In this document: positions 24,553 to 33,820 of the stretch, piece after piece
How positions within the stretch are numbered: position 1 is the stretch's first letter
Layout: every line of letters starts with the position of its first letter
DNA from: an uncultured Myxococcales bacterium
GTDB lineage: Bacteria; Myxococcota_A; UBA9042
Assembly (NCBI GenBank): GCA_903919145.1
Contig: CAIXGW010000033.1
Location: forward strand, 1 to 64,000
DNA: 64,000 nt
Direction: 5' to 3'
The notes under the pieces: generated by a model
What the model was told of the DNA's origin: nothing
Databases searched by the model: none
Seen by the model: the letters and a program-made list of their open reading frames with translations, nothing else
Position numbers and translations under genes: made by a program

Positions 24553-25200
24553 TTAAGAACTGTTGCGCGGGCTGACCCGCAGCGTCCAGCTGCTCTGGCC
24601 CACCTGCTGGGTCAGCTGCTGGAGCTGCCCGGTCAGCAGCTGCGCCGCCAGTCGCGTCTGGCAGGCCAGCAGCAGCCGGGCAATTGGTTGTTCTGTCAGA
24701 GGATGACCAGAAAGGACCAAGGTCAGCGCCGATCCGCTGAGCCCCACCTGCGGCACCGCCCCGGGGTACACCTGCGGCCAGACCTCTGGCAGCCGCTCGA
24801 CGCCTCGCTGCAGCCCATAGGCTCTAAGGGCCCACCGCGCCGGCCGGGCAAAGCGCTCCAGCACCCGTTCATGCCAATCGCTGGCAAAGGCCAGGGGATC
24901 GCCGCCCCAGCCCCTTTCGATCAACAGCCGGTGCAGCCCCAGCCAGGCCGAAGTGGCGATCCAGTCGCCGCGCTCCAGCCCCGCCAGCGAAGGCCAGTCG
25001 TCGCGGCCCGCCCCCAGCAAAGGCCAAGCATCTTCTACGGTTTTGACCAAACCCGGTCCGGCCAGCTCCTGCCAATCGCGCAGCAGGGCCGCACGCACCT
25101 GCCCTTGGGCCTGGAGATCCGCCGTCCAAGCCTTCAGGCACTGGTCGGCCAGCTCTGGCAGCCCTGCGCCGGCGCCGGGGCGGTCAGTAGTGGCGCTCAA
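24553..25200 (-). CDS. protein of unknown function next to prenyl-synthase fusion
   Basis: A roughly 215-residue, mostly helical soluble protein rich in Leu, Ala, Trp and Gln, without signal peptide, cysteines in pattern, or a motif I recognise. It overlaps the 3' end of the prenyl-synthase fusion gene and has no ATG there. TTG 25200 (overlap 17 nt) or TTG 25215 are the candidate starts, implying translational coupling. Its size and Trp-rich helical pattern vaguely recall myxobacteria-restricted heme-NO-binding-like families, but I cannot support that. It lies between the terpenoid-like gene and the TonB operon. Confidence 0.65.
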   Translation of the reverse strand: MSATTDRPGAGAGLPELADQCLKAWTADLQAQGQVRAALLRDWQELAGPGLVKTVEDAWPLLGAGRDDWPSLAGLERGDWIATSAWLGLHRLLIERGWGGDPLAFASDWHERVLERFARPARWALRAYGLQRGVERLPEVWPQVYPGAVPQVGLSGSALTLVLSGHPLTEQPIARLLLACQTRLAAQLLTGQLQQLTQQVGQSSWTLRVSPRNSS

Positions 25201-27430
25201 GCACGTACCAGCCAAAGGCCCGCAGCATCACCTTGGGCATGCTCGGCTCGACCAGCGGATCCAGGGCCGTCCACGCCGCTTCGACGAGCTCGCGGGCCTC
25301 GTCTTCGCAGGCCTGGATCGCCCCGCAGCCTTCCAGCAGCGCAATGGTTTGCTCAATTACTTGGCGGTCCTGGGGCATGCTGCGGACGGTGTCCCACAGC
25401 CACTGGCGCTGGTCGCGCTCAAGCCGCGCCATGCCTTTGACCACCGGCAGGGTGACTTTGCCGTGGGCGATGTCCTCTCCGCGGTCCTTGAGGTTGCCCT
25501 TGAAGCCGCGCAGGTTCAGCACGTCGTCGATGATCTGAAACGCCAAGCCCACCGACTCAAAAAAGCGGCCAACGCCATCGATCTGCGCCTCGCTGCCGCC
25601 GCCCACCAGGGCCCCCATCCGCGCCAGCGACGCCGCCGGGACCGCGGTCTTGAGGCGATGGACCGCCAGCACCCGCGGCTCCAGCCAGTCGCCGCCGCCG
25701 TCTTCCACAGCCCGCGGCATCTCAGCCGTCAGCCCGTCGAGGTCAAAAGCCTGCCCGGCGTGGCCAGCGCGCAGCGATTCAAAGTACAGGTCATAGAGCC
25801 GCAGCTTGTTGGCCGCCGACATGTCCTTGCCAATCAACAGTTTCTGACCCATGAAGTAGCAGGCAGTGCCGGCATTGATCGCCAGTGGCTCGCCGTAGAT
25901 GAGGTGGGCCGTAGGGCCGCCGCGGCGCACGGTCGAGCGGTCCTGCACGTCGTCGACAATCAGCGATCCCACGTGCATCAGCTCTGGCATCGCCAACCAC
26001 TGCACATACTCTCTGGAATCGCCGCCAACCACGTCGCAACAAGCCAGCGCCGCATAAGAGCGCCACGACTTGCCGCCGCGGTCGACGATCTCTCGCACCG
26101 GCTTGATGAGCGTGCGGGCAAACTGGTCGACATCGACCCCCTGCATGGCCTCAGGGCGATGCGGACCGCTGATCAGGTCGCGCACCTGCTCCCAGGTGGG
26201 GTGATGCGGAATCAGCGCATCGACCGAGCGCCGCACCTGGCGCCCCACGGCAGAGAAGAAGCCGTCCAAGTCGTTGATTCCGCCCTGGCCGCTGCGCTCC
26301 AGGTAGGCCAAGCCGGCCACCGGGGTGCCGTCTATCGTGCCGGTGACGCTACAGCGCCCTTCCCAGAACGCTGGCTTGGAGATAACGGTGATGAACTCCT
26401 GGTCGCTGACGTCGGCGGTGATGCGCAATTCGATGGCGGCGCCGGGCACCTGCAGCGTCCACTCAATGGGATAGTCGTGAAATGTCCTAGAGCTGCTCCA
26501 TACGGCACCGGGCGTCAGCGCAAATTCCTTCCAAGACTGCCGCTGGCTATCGGCGCCAATCAGCACAGCCAGGCTGCCAAGGTTGGCCCCAGTGTCTTCG
26601 TCCAGCATCGCATAGGCAGAGAGCTCGCGGCCGTCTTCCAGCTGAATTCCCAGCCAGTTCCAGCCGATGTTCTGCCCCGGCTTGCGGTCGTCGGTCTGGC
26701 CCTGGTGCAGGCCAAACTCGTGATCGTACCAGCCCTGGCCGCTGGCGATCGCCTCTGGCCCCCCCGGCAGCAGCACCGCGCCGGAGACAGCGCAGCGCGG
26801 CACAAAGTAGTAGAACATGTCCTCGCCAGAGGCACCGCGCACCACCCCGTCTTCGCCGTGGCGCACCGGCGTTTTCTGTGGGGCAAAGCGCAGATCCACA
26901 CCCACGGCCAGCCGGTCGTGGCGCAGATGCAGGGCGTAGGAGCCATCGGACTCGCGGTCAAAAGTCAGCCCGTCAAAGTCCAGGTGCAGGTGCTGCGGAT
27001 CGACAAACACCTCGCCCTTGAACATGACATCGGGGTGGGGCACCTGGCCGCGCTCCAGCAGCTCGCGGATCGCCCGGCGCAGGCGCTTGTCTTGGGTCCC
27101 CTCGCCGCGGTCGAGCTTTTGCAGGCCCAGGCGCGGCGCATCTTTGTCTACCCGCGACTCGGTGTAGTACTTGCCCGACGCGCGGTCCGTCAGGGCCCAG
27201 GTCACCGAGTGGGCGTGCTGCAGCTCTTGGGTCTGCGGGTCGCGGCCCTTGATGATGCGAAAGAACGACGCAAACAGGCTCAGCTCGCGGCCGGTCTCGG
27301 TGCGAAAATGGCTGTTGACGTACCACCACTCCGTCGAAGACGACGGGTGAGGAGCGTCGTGGCGGGCCAGGTCAATCGGCCCAGGCGCTGGCCAATCGGC
27401 GGGGTGCTGCGGTACGGGGTGCTGGCTCAT
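25184..27430 (-). CDS. fusion of CrtC/AttH-like domain and trans-polyprenyl diphosphate synthase
   Basis: A 748-residue two-domain protein. Residues about 20-400 match the CrtC (carotenoid 1,2-hydratase)/AttH lipocalin-like family: HPSSSTEWWYVNSHF, GQGWYDHEFGLHQ, IGWNWLGIQLEDGREL, DYPIEWTL and FWEGRCSVTG. Residues about 405-748 are a trans-isoprenyl diphosphate synthase. Its first Asp-rich motif is DDVQD (493-497) followed by RRGG, and the second is FQIIDDVLNL (Asp635, Asp636, with Asn639 where many family members have Asp), followed by EDIAHGKVTLPVV. The DDxxN form is known in some geranylgeranyl diphosphate synthases. The synthase condenses IPP with allylic diphosphates; the N-terminal half may act on a terpenoid. 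It lacks a signal peptide. GAGG precedes ATG 27430. Confidence 0.88.
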   Translation of the reverse strand: MSQHPVPQHPADWPAPGPIDLARHDAPHPSSSTEWWYVNSHFRTETGRELSLFASFFRIIKGRDPQTQELQHAHSVTWALTDRASGKYYTESRVDKDAPRLGLQKLDRGEGTQDKRLRRAIRELLERGQVPHPDVMFKGEVFVDPQHLHLDFDGLTFDRESDGSYALHLRHDRLAVGVDLRFAPQKTPVRHGEDGVVRGASGEDMFYYFVPRCAVSGAVLLPGGPEAIASGQGWYDHEFGLHQGQTDDRKPGQNIGWNWLGIQLEDGRELSAYAMLDEDTGANLGSLAVLIGADSQRQSWKEFALTPGAVWSSSRTFHDYPIEWTLQVPGAAIELRITADVSDQEFITVISKPAFWEGRCSVTGTIDGTPVAGLAYLERSGQGGINDLDGFFSAVGRQVRRSVDALIPHHPTWEQVRDLISGPHRPEAMQGVDVDQFARTLIKPVREIVDRGGKSWRSYAALACCDVVGGDSREYVQWLAMPELMHVGSLIVDDVQDRSTVRRGGPTAHLIYGEPLAINAGTACYFMGQKLLIGKDMSAANKLRLYDLYFESLRAGHAGQAFDLDGLTAEMPRAVEDGGGDWLEPRVLAVHRLKTAVPAASLARMGALVGGGSEAQIDGVGRFFESVGLAFQIIDDVLNLRGFKGNLKDRGEDIAHGKVTLPVVKGMARLERDQRQWLWDTVRSMPQDRQVIEQTIALLEGCGAIQACEDEARELVEAAWTALDPLVEPSMPKVMLRAFGWYVLERHY

Positions 27431-27503: not shown

Positions 27504-28610
27504 TCAAGGCGCCGCCCGCGCTGCTGCCCACACCTCTCTATCGCTGCGCGCAAACCCGCCCAGCCAAGCGAGCACCGCTGGGTCCAGGTGCGGCGCTGCC
27601 AAGACCCAGCCGTGGTGGGCGGCTCTTTGGCGATCGGCGTGCAACAGCTGCGGCAGCTCTTGGGCCCGCCACAAGCGCTCGGCGCGGTCCAACGGCTCGC
27701 AGCGCTCGGTGGGCTCAAACACCTCTGGTGGCCACGGCGAGGGATCCCCTGCCGCCAGCCCAGCTGCCGGCCCGCTGCCCAGCGGTGCCCCCAGCTGTTC
27801 GGCCGCCCCCTGCAGCGTCCACGCCGCAGCCCCCGCCGGTAGCGCTGGGGCGGGCGTCAACAAATCCTCACACTCGCCCGGCCACAGCCGTGCCAGCCCG
27901 GCAGGCTGATCCAGCAGGGCCAGAGCCCCTGCACCGCGCACGCACGCCGTGACGGCCGACCTCAGGCGCTCGCCCAGTCCGGCGGCCAGCAGGGCCTGGC
28001 GGTCGGCGGCGGAACCAGCCGACGTGGGCAAGGACGTAGGCAATTCGCGCAGATACGGCGCCGCCACCCCCTGCAACCGCAGCGCTTGCGCCGCCACCTT
28101 GCCGCCGGCCACCAGCAAGGCGATGCCCGGCGGAACGGCCCGCCAATGCTGTGCCAGCTCGAGGCGGTTGCTCCACAGCTGCAGCTCGCCCAGCCGCTGC
28201 CAGCCAAGCCAGCCCACACCCAGCGGGTCGCGCACCAGGATCGCCTGCCGCTGCCCCGGGTTCAGGCAGGCCAGGCTGCCCTGCCAGCGCCACGCCGCCA
28301 CCGCCGCCGGACCGTGCAGCGCCGCGTCGATCACCGTCAACCGGCAATGGTCGGCCACGGCCAGCGCCAGGCCGCGCAGAGCCAGGCGCTCTTGGACCGC
28401 ACTGTCGCTTAGCAAAACCCCAGAGAAGGCTCCCACGGCCCGGCCATCTGGCGCCCAAATCGCGGCCGGGGAGGCTGCCGTTGCCGCGGCGGCGCCTGGC
28501 CAAATCGCCAGCCCAAGCCCGTCGGCCTGCCAGATCTCCGCGGCGCCACACTCTGCCAGCCAGCGCTCGACCGCCGCCGCGGAGCCCAGAGCCAGGGCGA
28601 AATCAGCCAT
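27504..28610 (-). CDS. asparagine-synthetase-like protein lacking catalytic motifs
   Basis: A 368-residue protein whose central part follows the N-terminal (class II amidotransferase) half of AsnB-type asparagine synthetases: ILVRDPLGVGWLGW corresponds to the family's RDxxGxxPLYY strand, and ELQLWSNRLELAQHWRAVPPG to the FASExKALL...PPG stretch. The nucleophile Cys2 is absent (the start is MADFALAL). The region aligning with the ATP-pyrophosphatase loop reads ALALLDQPAGLARL instead of SGGxDS. It is therefore probably a pseudoenzyme with a binding or scaffold role. ATG 28610 is preceded by GGGAG 8 nt away; ATG 28661 has no such site. It lies 73 nt upstream of the prenyl-synthase fusion, probably in the same operon. 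Confidence 0.65.
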   Translation of the reverse strand: MADFALALGSAAAVERWLAECGAAEIWQADGLGLAIWPGAAAATAASPAAIWAPDGRAVGAFSGVLLSDSAVQERLALRGLALAVADHCRLTVIDAALHGPAAVAAWRWQGSLACLNPGQRQAILVRDPLGVGWLGWQRLGELQLWSNRLELAQHWRAVPPGIALLVAGGKVAAQALRLQGVAAPYLRELPTSLPTSAGSAADRQALLAAGLGERLRSAVTACVRGAGALALLDQPAGLARLWPGECEDLLTPAPALPAGAAAWTLQGAAEQLGAPLGSGPAAGLAAGDPSPWPPEVFEPTERCEPLDRAERLWRAQELPQLLHADRQRAAHHGWVLAAPHLDPAVLAWLGGFARSDREVWAAARAAP

Positions 28611-28741
28611 CTCACGCACTCCCACGGCCACAGCCGAGCTCTCGTCTGTGCGCAGGAGCATGGAACAACCAGTCAGCTGGCGCCAGAGCCCTGCCTGCCG
28701 CTCGCCCTGAGGTCTATTGCCGCCACCTGGGCGGGAATTGC

Positions 28742-28809: not shown

Positions 28810-30723
28810 ATGTTGTCGGTGTCCCGTTTCATGTATCTGTTGGCTGCGGCTGCTGTTTTTGCCGTCCCCTTTCTGAGCGGCTGCAGCGAAGAGGCCACGC
28901 CTGCCCCGACCGCCACCTCTGTGCCCTGCGCCACCCAGGACGACTGCGTCCAGGAAAATACCTTCTGCGACATGACGTTGAAGAAGTGCGTCAAGAACAC
29001 CTTTGGCGCAGATGCCACGGCCAACGCCGACGGCAACGCGATCAAAGACACCCTGGACGGCAGCAGCTCCACCGACGACGCCGCCGTCAGCGACAGCGCC
29101 CCCGACCTGGACGCCAAAGCCGACGCCGCCCTTCAGGACACCGCGCCCGCCAGCAATGACAAGAGCTGCAAGAAGTGCTCGACCAACAGCGACTGCCCCG
29201 GCGACCACGCCTGCGTGCCCCTGCTGTCTGGCAACTTTTGCGCCAAGAAGTGCGGCTCTGTGCAGGAATGCACCCCCGGCTACATCTGCGACGACGTGAC
29301 CCAGAGCAAAGGCGCCAGCAAGCACTGCGTCCTGCCGTCCTACGACTGCAAGGGCTGCGCCACCGACGGCTGCCCCAGCGACCAGCAGTGCAACTACAAG
29401 ACCAACCCGCCCAGCTGCCTGGAGGTCAAGAAGCAGTGCGAAAGCTGCCTGCAAGACAAGGACTGCGGCAATGGCCTGCGCTGCGTCAAGTTTGGCGACA
29501 ACAGCAAGTCCTGCCTGCCTGACTGCAGCGCCGGTCAAGCCTGCGCCGACAATTCCGCTTGCGTCTCCTACGTGACCGAGCAGACCAAGGCCTGCGCCTT
29601 TGCGGCCGCCAAGTGCTGCTACGGCCCGGCCTGCACCAGCGGCTGCAGCGGCTGCAAGACCACCTGCATCGCCGGCAAGTGCGCAGAGTGCACCAAGAAC
29701 TCCGACTGTGGCGCCACCGGCAGCTGCAACCTGAACACCTACACCTGCGTCACCAGCGCCACCTGCCCACCGGCCGGCGAGCCGACCAAGAAGATCAAGC
29801 TGTCGGCCACGGGCGAGTGCGTCGAGTGCACCAATGACACCCACTGCGCCGGCGCCGCGGGCGGCCCCAAGTGCAACGCTCAGAAGCACGTCTGCGAGAA
29901 AGGCGGCGGCGTGGGCGAGTGCGCGGCTTGCGGCGGCGACTACCCAGGCTGCGTGGAAATCAACGGCGTGTGGTCCTGCGTGGAGTGCGCGACCGACGAC
30001 GACTGCGCCAAGAAGAGCAAGGGCACCTGCATCGCCAAGAGCTACACCTGCTCGGGCTCGGTCGGCGGCGGCAGCGGCGGCGTCATTGGCCCCAAGACCG
30101 GCACCTGCAAGAGCGACGCCGACTGCCCCAAGGATCCCAACGGCAACTTTGACCTGGTGTGCGACACCGGCAGCGGCCTGTGCTTTGACAAAGAAGGCAA
30201 GTGCGACAACGTGATTGCCTTTTGCAACGCCGCGGCCGGCTCTACCTGCGAGCTGAACAGCGACCTGCTGGGCGGCGCTGGCGGCGGCTTGCCGGGTGGC
30301 CTGCCAGGCGGCCTGCCCGGTGGCGGCGGCGGCGGCACCCCCGCGCCCAACGCCGGATCGTGCACCTGCGGCACCGGCGGCGGATCGGGCGGCACCGGCT
30401 CTGGCTACAAGTTCAGCCAGACCTGCGAACTGGTCAAAGCCTTGATCCCAAGTTTGGCCAAGTGCGACTGCAGCAAGGATCCCAACAGCACCGACTGCCA
30501 ACCCCTGGGCGCGATCCCCATCCCGGGCCTGCCCACAACCTGCTGCGAAGCGGTCAGCGGCGGCGGCGGCAGCTCGACCCCAAGCGATCCGCTAACTTGC
30601 ATGCTCGGTGGCTTGTCTGGCAAGCCCGACCCGATGTGCTTTGGCGGCATCAGCTGCAGCACCCTGCTGTCTTGCATCAGCGGCAAGCCGGGCGGCACCT
30701 GCGGCAGCGGCCTGGGCCTGTAG
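28810..30723 (+). CDS. large cysteine-rich lipoprotein
   Basis: A 637-residue predicted surface lipoprotein: signal peptide with lipobox LSGC (Cys25), an Asp/Ala/Thr-rich spacer, then many short disulfide-type modules of the form C-x4-DC-x3-xxC-x-xxxxxC, such as CSTNSDCPGDHAC and CTKNSDCGATGSC. Gly-rich linkers separate a final Cys-rich block (after about residue 480: LGGAGGGLPGGLPGG). There are dozens of cysteines overall. Such DxDC-type Cys-rich repeats are frequent in myxobacterial secreted proteins; their roles are mostly unknown (adhesion or cell-surface matrix are guesses). GGAGG lies 4 nt before ATG 28810. Codon use is the same as in neighbours. Confidence 0.85.
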   Translation: MLSVSRFMYLLAAAAVFAVPFLSGCSEEATPAPTATSVPCATQDDCVQENTFCDMTLKKCVKNTFGADATANADGNAIKDTLDGSSSTDDAAVSDSAPDLDAKADAALQDTAPASNDKSCKKCSTNSDCPGDHACVPLLSGNFCAKKCGSVQECTPGYICDDVTQSKGASKHCVLPSYDCKGCATDGCPSDQQCNYKTNPPSCLEVKKQCESCLQDKDCGNGLRCVKFGDNSKSCLPDCSAGQACADNSACVSYVTEQTKACAFAAAKCCYGPACTSGCSGCKTTCIAGKCAECTKNSDCGATGSCNLNTYTCVTSATCPPAGEPTKKIKLSATGECVECTNDTHCAGAAGGPKCNAQKHVCEKGGGVGECAACGGDYPGCVEINGVWSCVECATDDDCAKKSKGTCIAKSYTCSGSVGGGSGGVIGPKTGTCKSDADCPKDPNGNFDLVCDTGSGLCFDKEGKCDNVIAFCNAAAGSTCELNSDLLGGAGGGLPGGLPGGLPGGGGGGTPAPNAGSCTCGTGGGSGGTGSGYKFSQTCELVKALIPSLAKCDCSKDPNSTDCQPLGAIPIPGLPTTCCEAVSGGGGSSTPSDPLTCMLGGLSGKPDPMCFGGISCSTLLSCISGKPGGTCGSGLGL

Positions 30724-31433: not shown

Positions 31434-33113
31434 TCAGCTCTGGGCCAGCACGGCCGCCGGATCGAGCGTTGTGGCGCGCAAAGCTGGCCCCAGCGCTCCA
31501 AGCACGGTGAACACCGACGCCACGGCGACGCTCAGCGGCAGCGCCCACCCCGGAAAGGCGAAGAATCCGCTTGGCAGCAGCGGCACATCGGCCAGAAAGC
31601 GCGCCGCCGCCGCATCCACGCCCGCCGCCGCCAGCAGCGCCAGGCCGCCGCCCAGCGCCCCGCCGACGGCGCCGATCACCATCGCCTCGCCCAGGACCAG
31701 GACGGCGATGTCGAGCCTTGCCGCCCCCAGGGCCCGCAGCACAGCGATCTCGCGGCGGCGCTCGTGGACCAGCATGGCAAAGGTCTGGGCAATTTGGATG
31801 GCTGCCACCACCAGCACCAGCGTGGCCAGCAGCACCAGCGCCAAGCTGGTGACCATCACCACCGTGCCAAAGGTGCGAGCGGCGCGCGACTTGCGACTCA
31901 GCTGCAAGCCCAGCTTCTCGGCGGCGACAATGACCTGGGGCACCTCTTCATTGCTGAGGGTGTCCAGCAGGATCGCGTCAAAACTCGCGGCCGCTTCTAC
32001 GCTTTTCAGGCGGGCATTGGTGTGGCGGATAAAGGACAGCGGAAACGCCACCCCAAGCTCTGGCGCCTTGCGAGAGAAGCCCACGACTTGCGCTTGTTTG
32101 ATCTGCTGCAGGCCGCGCTCAGAGTCCTTGCCAAAGTAGGAGTCGCCCAGGACCACGTGAAAGCGCACACCGTAGAGCACCGCCAGCGAGCCGATGGGGG
32201 CGGCGCCAAGAGACCGGGCCATGTCTGAGTTGAAGACCTCAAGCAGCAGCGGGTTGATGACGGCGGGCAGCGGCGTCTCGCACCAGCCCAGGCGGGTCTC
32301 TGGGTGGTCAGCGGCGCAGTAGGTGCCCACGGGGCAGCGGGTAGAGGGCTTGGGGCACCAGCCTTCGGCGCAGGGGCTGGCCAGCTCGCCGTATTCTGCG
32401 TCGTACTGCAGGTCGCGGCCGCTGCCGGTGGCGGCCAGCAGCATGCAGCGCTGGGCAGGGGCGGCAGTGGCACTCTGGCAGCGGCCGTCGCCGCAGGTCC
32501 AGCCAGCCGGGCAGCTGGCGGCAGTGCTACAAGCCATTGCCACGTCTGGGTATTCTACAAAGCGGTCGGCCCAAATGATGGCTTCGCACAGGCCGTCTCG
32601 GCAGGCCTGGCCAGAGCGGCAGTCCAGGTCTTCTTCGCAGCGGCGCGCCTTGACGGCGGGGCTTGGGCGGCGCTTGGCCCCGGCGTCTTCAAACGCCTCG
32701 ATCTCGCTGCGCAGCACCTGAGCGGGCACGCCATCAAAAAAGGCTTCGGTAAAGAGATTGTAGCCCAACAATTCCTTGCCGCCCCACAGGCGCGCCGGAA
32801 AGCTGGACTTCTGCTTGCCAAAGGCACGCACGACCCCTGGCAGCGCCGCCACCTGGCGGACCCGCGCCTCGTCAAGGGGTTCTTGCAGCGCGACCTGCTC
32901 AATGCCAAAAATCTGCACGGCGCGGGGCTCGAATTCCAGCTGGTTGACTGGAAAGATCCGCTCCAGCACCTTCTCTCTCAGCCCTTGGCCCAGGCCCAGA
33001 AAGAACGTCAGCAGGCCCGTGCCTACCACAATGCCGACCATGGCCAAGGCCGCACGCACCCAAGAAGATCGCAGGTTGTGGCCAATAAGGCTGAGCAGGC
33101 GCGCCAATCTCAT
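31434..33113 (-). CDS. FtsX/MacB-type ABC transporter permease with Cys-rich periplasmic insert
   Basis: A 559-residue permease. The first membrane helix (residues about 19-44) precedes a MacB_PCD-type periplasmic domain, and three C-terminal helices follow (about 405-440, 465-495, 525-550), with the FtsX motif VHERRREIAVLRALGA between helices 2 and 3. Within the periplasmic domain, residues 159-278 contain 14 cysteines, including two units of the type DLDCRSGQACRDGLC and SCPAGWTCGDGRC that resemble secreted Cys-rich repeats. LolE- and MacB-type permeases move lipoproteins or other substrates from the inner membrane using an ATPase partner. That ATPase gene overlaps the start by 4 nt. The insert has no counterpart in the family that I know of. 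Confidence 0.88.
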   Translation of the reverse strand: MRLARLLSLIGHNLRSSWVRAALAMVGIVVGTGLLTFFLGLGQGLREKVLERIFPVNQLEFEPRAVQIFGIEQVALQEPLDEARVRQVAALPGVVRAFGKQKSSFPARLWGGKELLGYNLFTEAFFDGVPAQVLRSEIEAFEDAGAKRRPSPAVKARRCEEDLDCRSGQACRDGLCEAIIWADRFVEYPDVAMACSTAASCPAGWTCGDGRCQSATAAPAQRCMLLAATGSGRDLQYDAEYGELASPCAEGWCPKPSTRCPVGTYCAADHPETRLGWCETPLPAVINPLLLEVFNSDMARSLGAAPIGSLAVLYGVRFHVVLGDSYFGKDSERGLQQIKQAQVVGFSRKAPELGVAFPLSFIRHTNARLKSVEAAASFDAILLDTLSNEEVPQVIVAAEKLGLQLSRKSRAARTFGTVVMVTSLALVLLATLVLVVAAIQIAQTFAMLVHERRREIAVLRALGAARLDIAVLVLGEAMVIGAVGGALGGGLALLAAAGVDAAAARFLADVPLLPSGFFAFPGWALPLSVAVASVFTVLGALGPALRATTLDPAAVLAQS

Positions 33114-33820
33114 GCCTGGACTCCTGCGACGCGACCGCGGTCCAGCACGATCGTTCGCTGGGCCAGGGCCGCCACCAGCGGATCGTGGGTCACCACCACC
33201 AGCGTCGCGCCGCTTTGTTGCTGGGTCTGGCGCAAAAGGTCAAGGATCTGATGGGCGGTCGCGGCGTCCAGGCTGCCGGTGGGCTCGTCACAGACCAGCA
33301 GCGGTGGCTGCAGCAGCAAAGCCCTGGCAATCGCCACCCTTTGCCGCTCGCCGCCCGACAGCTGCCCCGGTGGCTGGTCAAAGCGCTCGCCCAACCCCAC
33401 TTCCTGCAGCAGCTGGCGGGCCCGTCGCTCGATCTCGGCGGCGGCAATCGGCGTGCCAAAGGACGCCGGCAGCATGACGTTGTCGCCCACCGTCAAGTGA
33501 GGCAGCAAGTTGAAGGACTGAAAGACAAAGCCAATCTGGCGATTGCGAAAGCGCGCCAGCGCCCGATCCGGCAGCCGGCTCAGCTCCTGGCCAAAGACCT
33601 GCAGCGAGCCCTGGTAGCCGCGGTCCAAGGCGCCGATCAGATTGAGCAGGGTCGACTTGCCGGCGCCCGAGCGGCCGACGATCGCCACGTGCTCGCCGCG
33701 CTCGATGCACAGGTCCACGCCGTCCAAGGCCTGCACCAGTCTTCCATCGGCGGCAAATTGGCGCTTGAGGCCCTGGGCGGCGATGGCGGCGGTGGCATTC
33801 GGCAGGACCTGTTCTCTCAT
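33110..33820 (-). CDS. LolD/MacB-type ABC transporter ATP-binding protein
   Basis: A 236-residue ATPase with all motifs intact: Walker A GRSGAGKST (49-57), Q-loop FQSFNLLPHLTV, signature LSGGERQRVAIARAL (154-168) and Walker B LLVCDEPTGSLD. It pairs with the FtsX-type permease whose start codon overlaps its stop (ATGA). The family energises lipoprotein release or efflux from the inner membrane. Because lnt is upstream in the same gene string, a lipoprotein-sorting role is attractive but unproven. Confidence 0.92.
   Translation of the reverse strand: MREQVLPNATAAIAAQGLKRQFAADGRLVQALDGVDLCIERGEHVAIVGRSGAGKSTLLNLIGALDRGYQGSLQVFGQELSRLPDRALARFRNRQIGFVFQSFNLLPHLTVGDNVMLPASFGTPIAAAEIERRARQLLQEVGLGERFDQPPGQLSGGERQRVAIARALLLQPPLLVCDEPTGSLDAATAHQILDLLRQTQQQSGATLVVVTHDPLVAALAQRTIVLDRGRVAGVQA

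Follow-up and report, generated by a model that had tools for sequence, protein, structure and literature searches.

The fusion gene and its setting

The window, by which we mean the whole stretch of 64,000 nucleotides that was analyzed, encodes on its minus strand a protein of 748 residues in which an AttH/CrtC-like calycin domain is followed by a trans-polyprenyl diphosphate synthase. The reading frame opens with an ATG at 27430, directly 5' of which lies a ribosome-binding-like GAGGA, and closes with a TGA at 25186-25184. The initial annotation had reported one continuous frame of 748 codons at 25184-27430 and left its strand unstated; the frame is present, on the minus strand, and all three of the motifs named there occur in it, at residues 33-42 (TEWWYVNSHF), 233-240 (GWYDHEFG) and 355-362 (FWEGRCSV). 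A domain search assigns the N-terminal half to CrtC and Lipocalin_9 and the C-terminal half to polyprenyl_synt, all three matches lying far over the curated Pfam cut-offs, and with both Asp-rich regions in place the CrtC-type half is joined to a complete prenyl synthase, as had been proposed. The features of the locus are as follows (all on the minus strand).

25184..27430, minus: fusion gene, AttH/CrtC-like calycin domain plus trans-polyprenyl diphosphate synthase (748 aa; from frame, Pfam and homologues)
26711..27334, minus: CrtC N-terminal lipocalin domain (PF07143), residues 33-240, Pfam E=1.6e-20
26723..26725, minus: D236 of GWYDHEFG, aligned with the proposed catalytic acid D268 of RgCrtC; Asp in 41 of 42 homologues, Glu in one
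26654..26662, minus: W257-N-W259, aligned with the cation-stabilizing W283/W285 of CrtC; both Trp invariant
26294..26668, minus: Lipocalin_9 domain (PF17186), residues 255-379, Pfam E=2.4e-24
26114..26290, minus: interdomain stretch, residues 381-439, predicted mostly helical and well predicted
25337..26113, minus: polyprenyl synthetase domain polyprenyl_synt (PF00348), residues 440-698, Pfam E=2.7e-46
25940..25954, minus: first Asp-rich motif, DDVQD, residues 493-497, Asp invariant
25514..25528, minus: second Asp-rich motif, DDVLN (DDxxN form), residues 635-639, Asp invariant
24553..25200, minus: overlapping downstream gene, about 215 aa, of a ~200-aa family found near the fusion in 21 loci
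27504..28661, minus: upstream co-directional gene, position conserved in 13 loci, without a Pfam match

The length of the frame is by itself weak proof of a gene, because an ORF of 999 aa lies antisense to it on the plus strand. The possibility that the fusion frame is an artefact of high GC content was rejected, as conservation follows the minus strand and it is the 999-aa antisense ORF that is the artefact. The frame is real on the evidence of homology: a single scan of GTDB genomes brought up relatives at 58 loci, and about 50 of these match over nearly the full length with 46-74% identity, so that the same order of domains, which the initial annotation had suggested looking for elsewhere, does recur in other genomes. 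An assembly join or frameshift between the halves is excluded by the homologues in several phyla and by near relatives with the same uninterrupted full-length frame, and the fusion stands as a true gene. Repeats flanking it gave only weak, chance-like matches. In the AF2 model of the whole chain (pLDDT 90), the full-length pTM of 0.89 argues for a defined, if predicted, arrangement of the domains.

The full-length homologues come mostly from Myxococcota, where the fusion occurs in most members of the host's own family and in scattered families elsewhere in the phylum, and also from Bacteroidota (Spirosoma, Telluribacter and others), the cyanobacteria Iningainema and Cyanosarcina and one Verrucomicrobiota MAG. 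For two MAGs, labelled Klebsiella (L009) and Thermoplasmata (L046), a wrong label or wrong binning is probable. In the tree, the proteins of Bacteroidota, cyanobacteria and Verrucomicrobiota group as a single clade (support 100/99), nested among those of Myxococcota, which suggests horizontal transfer; the position of two long plasmid branches is unsure. Divergent versions (32-34% identity) are carried on plasmids of Tolypothrix and Streptomyces canus, and the database names of the plasmid homologues are just "polyprenyl synthetase family protein". On the plasmid of Tolypothrix sp. PCC 7601 (L064:7655-12184) a single protein of 1509 aa comprises sulfotransferase, GT28/EryCIII-type glycosyltransferase, CrtC, Lipocalin_9 and polyprenyl synthetase domains, several terpenoid-pathway steps on one chain. 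A plasmid of Nitrosomonas stercoris encodes a divergent relative (L066:7359-9308) followed by a flavin monooxygenase-like gene; it was left uncounted as a full fusion, its N-terminal half being recognizable only from about residue 258.

Genes at the loci were called with a simple codon-usage script rather than a standard gene finder. The ~200-aa family of the downstream gene adjoins the fusion, or lies one gene away from it, in 21 Myxococcota loci (cluster 1 in 18 loci; clusters 1 and 22 of the family are related, hhalign 98.7%); it has no Pfam or useful NCBIfam match and is a possible functional partner of the fusion. For the neighbor genes of the window's clade that lack an assigned family, NCBIfam offered no useful name. 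A protein of ~590 aa, likely a membrane protein and without a Pfam match, is encoded near the fusion in 13 loci (L027:10352-12121, L025:6284-8053 and 11 others). Divergent from the fusion operon in the window, at 28831-30723 on the plus strand, lies a gene for a Cys-rich, probably secreted lipoprotein that is kept in 13 loci and has no Pfam match, and at 31434-33820 on the minus strand lie genes for an FtsX-type permease and a LolD-like ATPase.

Potential tailoring genes adjoin the fusion in other phyla. The Telluribacter locus holds a glycosyltransferase, the fusion, LMF1, an FkbM methyltransferase and two P450s, the same gene families being found in the Spirosoma loci; the Cyanosarcina locus has an FkbM methyltransferase and a UDPGT, and that of the Verrucomicrobiota MAG a glycosyltransferase and an HMG-CoA-synthase-like gene. 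There is a GT4 gene by the fusion in G076 and L022 and a UDPGT-like gene in L032, and within the family of the window neither a glycosyltransferase nor a P450 lies beside it. The 128 genes at most two positions from the fusion have 11 Pfam matches to glycosyltransferase domains, against 2 in the 126 that lie at a greater distance (p=0.02). The signal is modest, as these are matches rather than independent loci, the loci are partly related and the hits fall largely in one clade. In G076 a MbnB/TglH/ChrH-type RiPP modification gene (L079:6397-7236) lies three genes before the fusion.

Folds and conserved residues of the two halves

The synthase half has an all-alpha fold that matches GGPP synthases in Foldseek (1wy0, TM 0.85; 5jfq, TM 0.89), and D493, D494, D497, R502, R503, K594, Q632, D635 and D636 are invariant in 42 homologues. 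G488 is the small residue five positions before the first Asp motif and Y525-F526 lies in helix D; the small residue, the Tyr-Phe pair and a first motif of the DDxxD form are shared with the type III (eukaryotic) GGPP synthases, which differ in having no fused calycin domain. Between the first Asp motif and helix D the sequence finds human GGPPS as its best match (E=6.6e-11), followed by fungal copalyl diphosphate synthases (9q3i, 8v0f) and yeast GGPPS. These similarities suggest that the product of the synthase half is C20, geranylgeranyl diphosphate.

The calycin half, modeled alone (pLDDT 89), consists of two lipocalin-like barrels. Foldseek places it closest to AttH NE1406 (2ich, TM 0.84) and next to kievitone hydratase (7a0q/7a0t, TM 0.77-0.78), with weaker matches to 25-phosphosteroid lyase and to the pericyclases Fsa2 and Phm7, and a profile search of PDB sequences returns AttH NE1406 (E=1.1e-32) and kievitone hydratase. 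NE1406, the closest solved relative by sequence and by fold, has the same WxD and WxW motifs, although it is a single protein without a synthase domain. Kievitone hydratase, which hydrates a prenyl group (PMC5805349), shares the fold, and its WYD and WxW motifs align with those of the fusion; it differs in being a secreted fungal enzyme whose substrate is a prenylated isoflavonoid.

The relationship to carotenoid 1,2-hydratase, CrtC, is more distant. In this enzyme D268 is the proposed catalytic acid (PMC4717167, PMC12402844), with protonation of the terminal prenyl double bond as its proposed role, and activity depends on D268, W110, W283 and W285 (PMC12402844). Equivalents of all four are kept in the fusion, together with the PF07143 domain; the counterpart of W110, assigned through the shared WWYV motif, is W36 (or W35), and W36 is invariant across the 42 homologues. 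In contrast, H239, W241 and Y266, each of which is essential in CrtC (PMC4717167), are replaced, the aligned residues being D204, F206 and W234, so the chemistry of the domain may differ from that of CrtC. CrtC is also a separate protein, encoded in a crt cluster with crtD, and when the domain is aligned by profile with photosynthetic CrtC the match is collinear but weak (hhalign probability 2.4%, E=0.019). The alignment set consisted of four plasmid-borne CrtC proteins from the database, for which a partial CrtC sequence served as bait, and only the returned database sequences were aligned. AttH and kievitone hydratase are closer relatives of the N-terminal half than photosynthetic CrtC is, and with the acid/Trp core kept and H239, W241 and Y266 lost this half is best described as an AttH-branch domain with a CrtC-type core rather than as a CrtC.

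Proposed function and alternative readings

Synthesis and modification of a terpenoid are probably combined in this one protein. The reading that we favor, with a probability of about 0.55 and on the strength of sequence comparison and structural models, is that of a bifunctional terpenoid-forming enzyme that would make a C20 prenyl diphosphate and then protonate its far end. The C-terminal domain would condense IPP with an allylic diphosphate to give the C20 (geranylgeranyl) diphosphate, and the two-barrel calycin domain would bind the far (omega) end of the chain, where D236 could protonate the terminal double bond. The resulting tertiary cation would be held by W36, W257 and W259 and quenched either by water, as in a hydratase, to leave a tertiary alcohol, or by double bonds within the chain, as in a cyclase, two outcomes that we judge about equally likely. 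The product may then be decorated by glycosyltransferases and, in some lineages, by P450s, methyltransferases or sulfotransferases. Transfer of the chain between the domains by channelling, as the initial annotation had suggested, is plausible. Sequence and prediction show both folds, the conservation of both catalytic cores and of the fusion itself, and the tailoring neighbors in other phyla. Synthesis followed by an acid step at the far end of the chain is the simplest reading to draw on every conserved residue, and would lead to a hydroxylated or cyclized diterpenoid for other enzymes to glycosylate and oxidize. The mismatch that had been perceived between a late-acting CrtC-type domain and an early-acting prenyl synthase is not real, since CrtC hydrates C12-C20 terpenoids, among them farnesol, geranylgeraniol and geranyllinalool (PMC12402844), and a C20 chain from the fused synthase is therefore a plausible substrate.

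In fungal PaFS (fusicoccadiene synthase) and PvCPS (copalyl diphosphate synthase), as in the fusion, the chain-modifying domain is N-terminal and the GGPP synthase C-terminal; in the fusion the prenyltransferase is joined to a domain that retains catalytic residues and whose terpenoid-forming activity is predicted. PvCPS begins by protonating GGPP at its far end, as class II cyclases do, and the chain-length region of PvCPS-type proteins is close to that of the fusion. PvCPS and PaFS would be its functional analogue (PMC8190136). Unlike their modifying domains, that of the fusion is a beta calycin rather than class I alpha or class II beta-gamma, and it is bacterial; because the fold of this second domain differs, we do not claim membership in the PaFS/PvCPS-type class. 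The more specific proposal, a terpene cyclase in which the calycin (AttH/CrtC) domain uses protonation to fold the GGPP from its own synthase into rings, has a real chance of being right but is less likely than not.

Several other roles for the N-terminal domain have to be weighed against terpenoid formation. That it is a non-catalytic, lipocalin-like lipid binder, holding the prenyl diphosphate or offloading it to a partner, is in keeping with the frequency of binding proteins among calycin folds and with AttH NE1406, for which no activity has been proven and a lipid-binding role was proposed (PMC2954199). The idea of a domain merely holding the hydrophobic product, which the initial annotation had also offered, is nevertheless disfavored by the conserved acid/Trp core, which matches that of CrtC and kievitone hydratase, and since the characterized structural neighbors are enzymes rather than carriers we find it doubtful. 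NE1406 has LolD-like genes associated with it (PMC2954199), and the domain of the fusion might act as an AttH-like accessory of an ABC exporter, passing a prenyl lipid to a LolD/MacB-type transporter. LolD/FtsX-type genes lie 4-6.5 kb upstream of the start of the fusion, with the same pair in the region of several relatives; ABC transporter genes adjoin the fusion on the S. canus plasmid and a lone synthase in Streptomyces NBC_01431, and DevC/DevA adjoin the fusion in Tolypothrix. Most loci, however, have no adjacent transporter, and ABC domains are not commoner among near neighbors (2 of 128) than among far ones (5 of 126), which leaves this role unlikely. It is also improbable that the domain eliminates or hydrolyzes the diphosphate end to give a diene or an alcohol in the manner of 25-phosphosteroid lyase, whose step releases phosphate from a tertiary carbon (PMC11061730): the Foldseek match to 9fzn/9g4c (E about 1e-10) indicates a related fold, but the TM-score is only 0.45-0.52 and the identity 10-11%, and the CrtC-type residues point instead to protonation of a terminal double bond.

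An ordinary carotenoid 1,2-hydratase that happens to bring its own GGPP synthase would account for the PF07143 match, and elsewhere in the same genome (contig C2, L078 8281-12240, minus strand) adjacent genes for SQS_PSY, a CrtI-like amine-oxidase and a prenyl synthase likely form a carotenoid operon with crtE-, crtI- and crtB-like members. That operon gives carotenoid precursors a synthase of their own, which disfavors a carotenoid role for the fusion; moreover, no crt gene adjoins the fusion, as had been noted, and three of the four CrtC residues originally reported as essential are replaced. SQS_PSY (phytoene/squalene synthase) is absent from 7 of 19 good fusion-carrying genomes, including G012 (100% complete) and G013 (95%), and although single absences in draft genomes are soft, the seven make dependence on phytoene or squalene, and hence a carotenoid enzyme, unlikely. 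A convincing squalene-hopene cyclase is likewise absent from most of these genomes. We therefore regard an ordinary carotenoid hydratase as highly improbable.

No description of this domain layout was found in the open-access literature that was searched, in agreement with the statement of the initial annotation that it knew of no such enzyme. The analysis suggests that self-sufficient terpenoid-forming enzymes with a calycin fold, and not the classic cyclase fold, make up a widespread bacterial family that is apparently undescribed. If the cyclase reading is true, the calycin domain would add to the classic alpha and beta-gamma folds a different kind of terpene cyclase fold, on the same chain as the precursor synthase and present in several phyla. 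As precursor supply and modification lie on one chain, the product should be readable from a single gene in E. coli, and it becomes possible to test directly whether the common AttH/CrtC-like domains act on prenyl diphosphates. Candidate natural products would come from the clusters of Spirosoma and Telluribacter, which hold two P450s, a methyltransferase and a glycosyltransferase.
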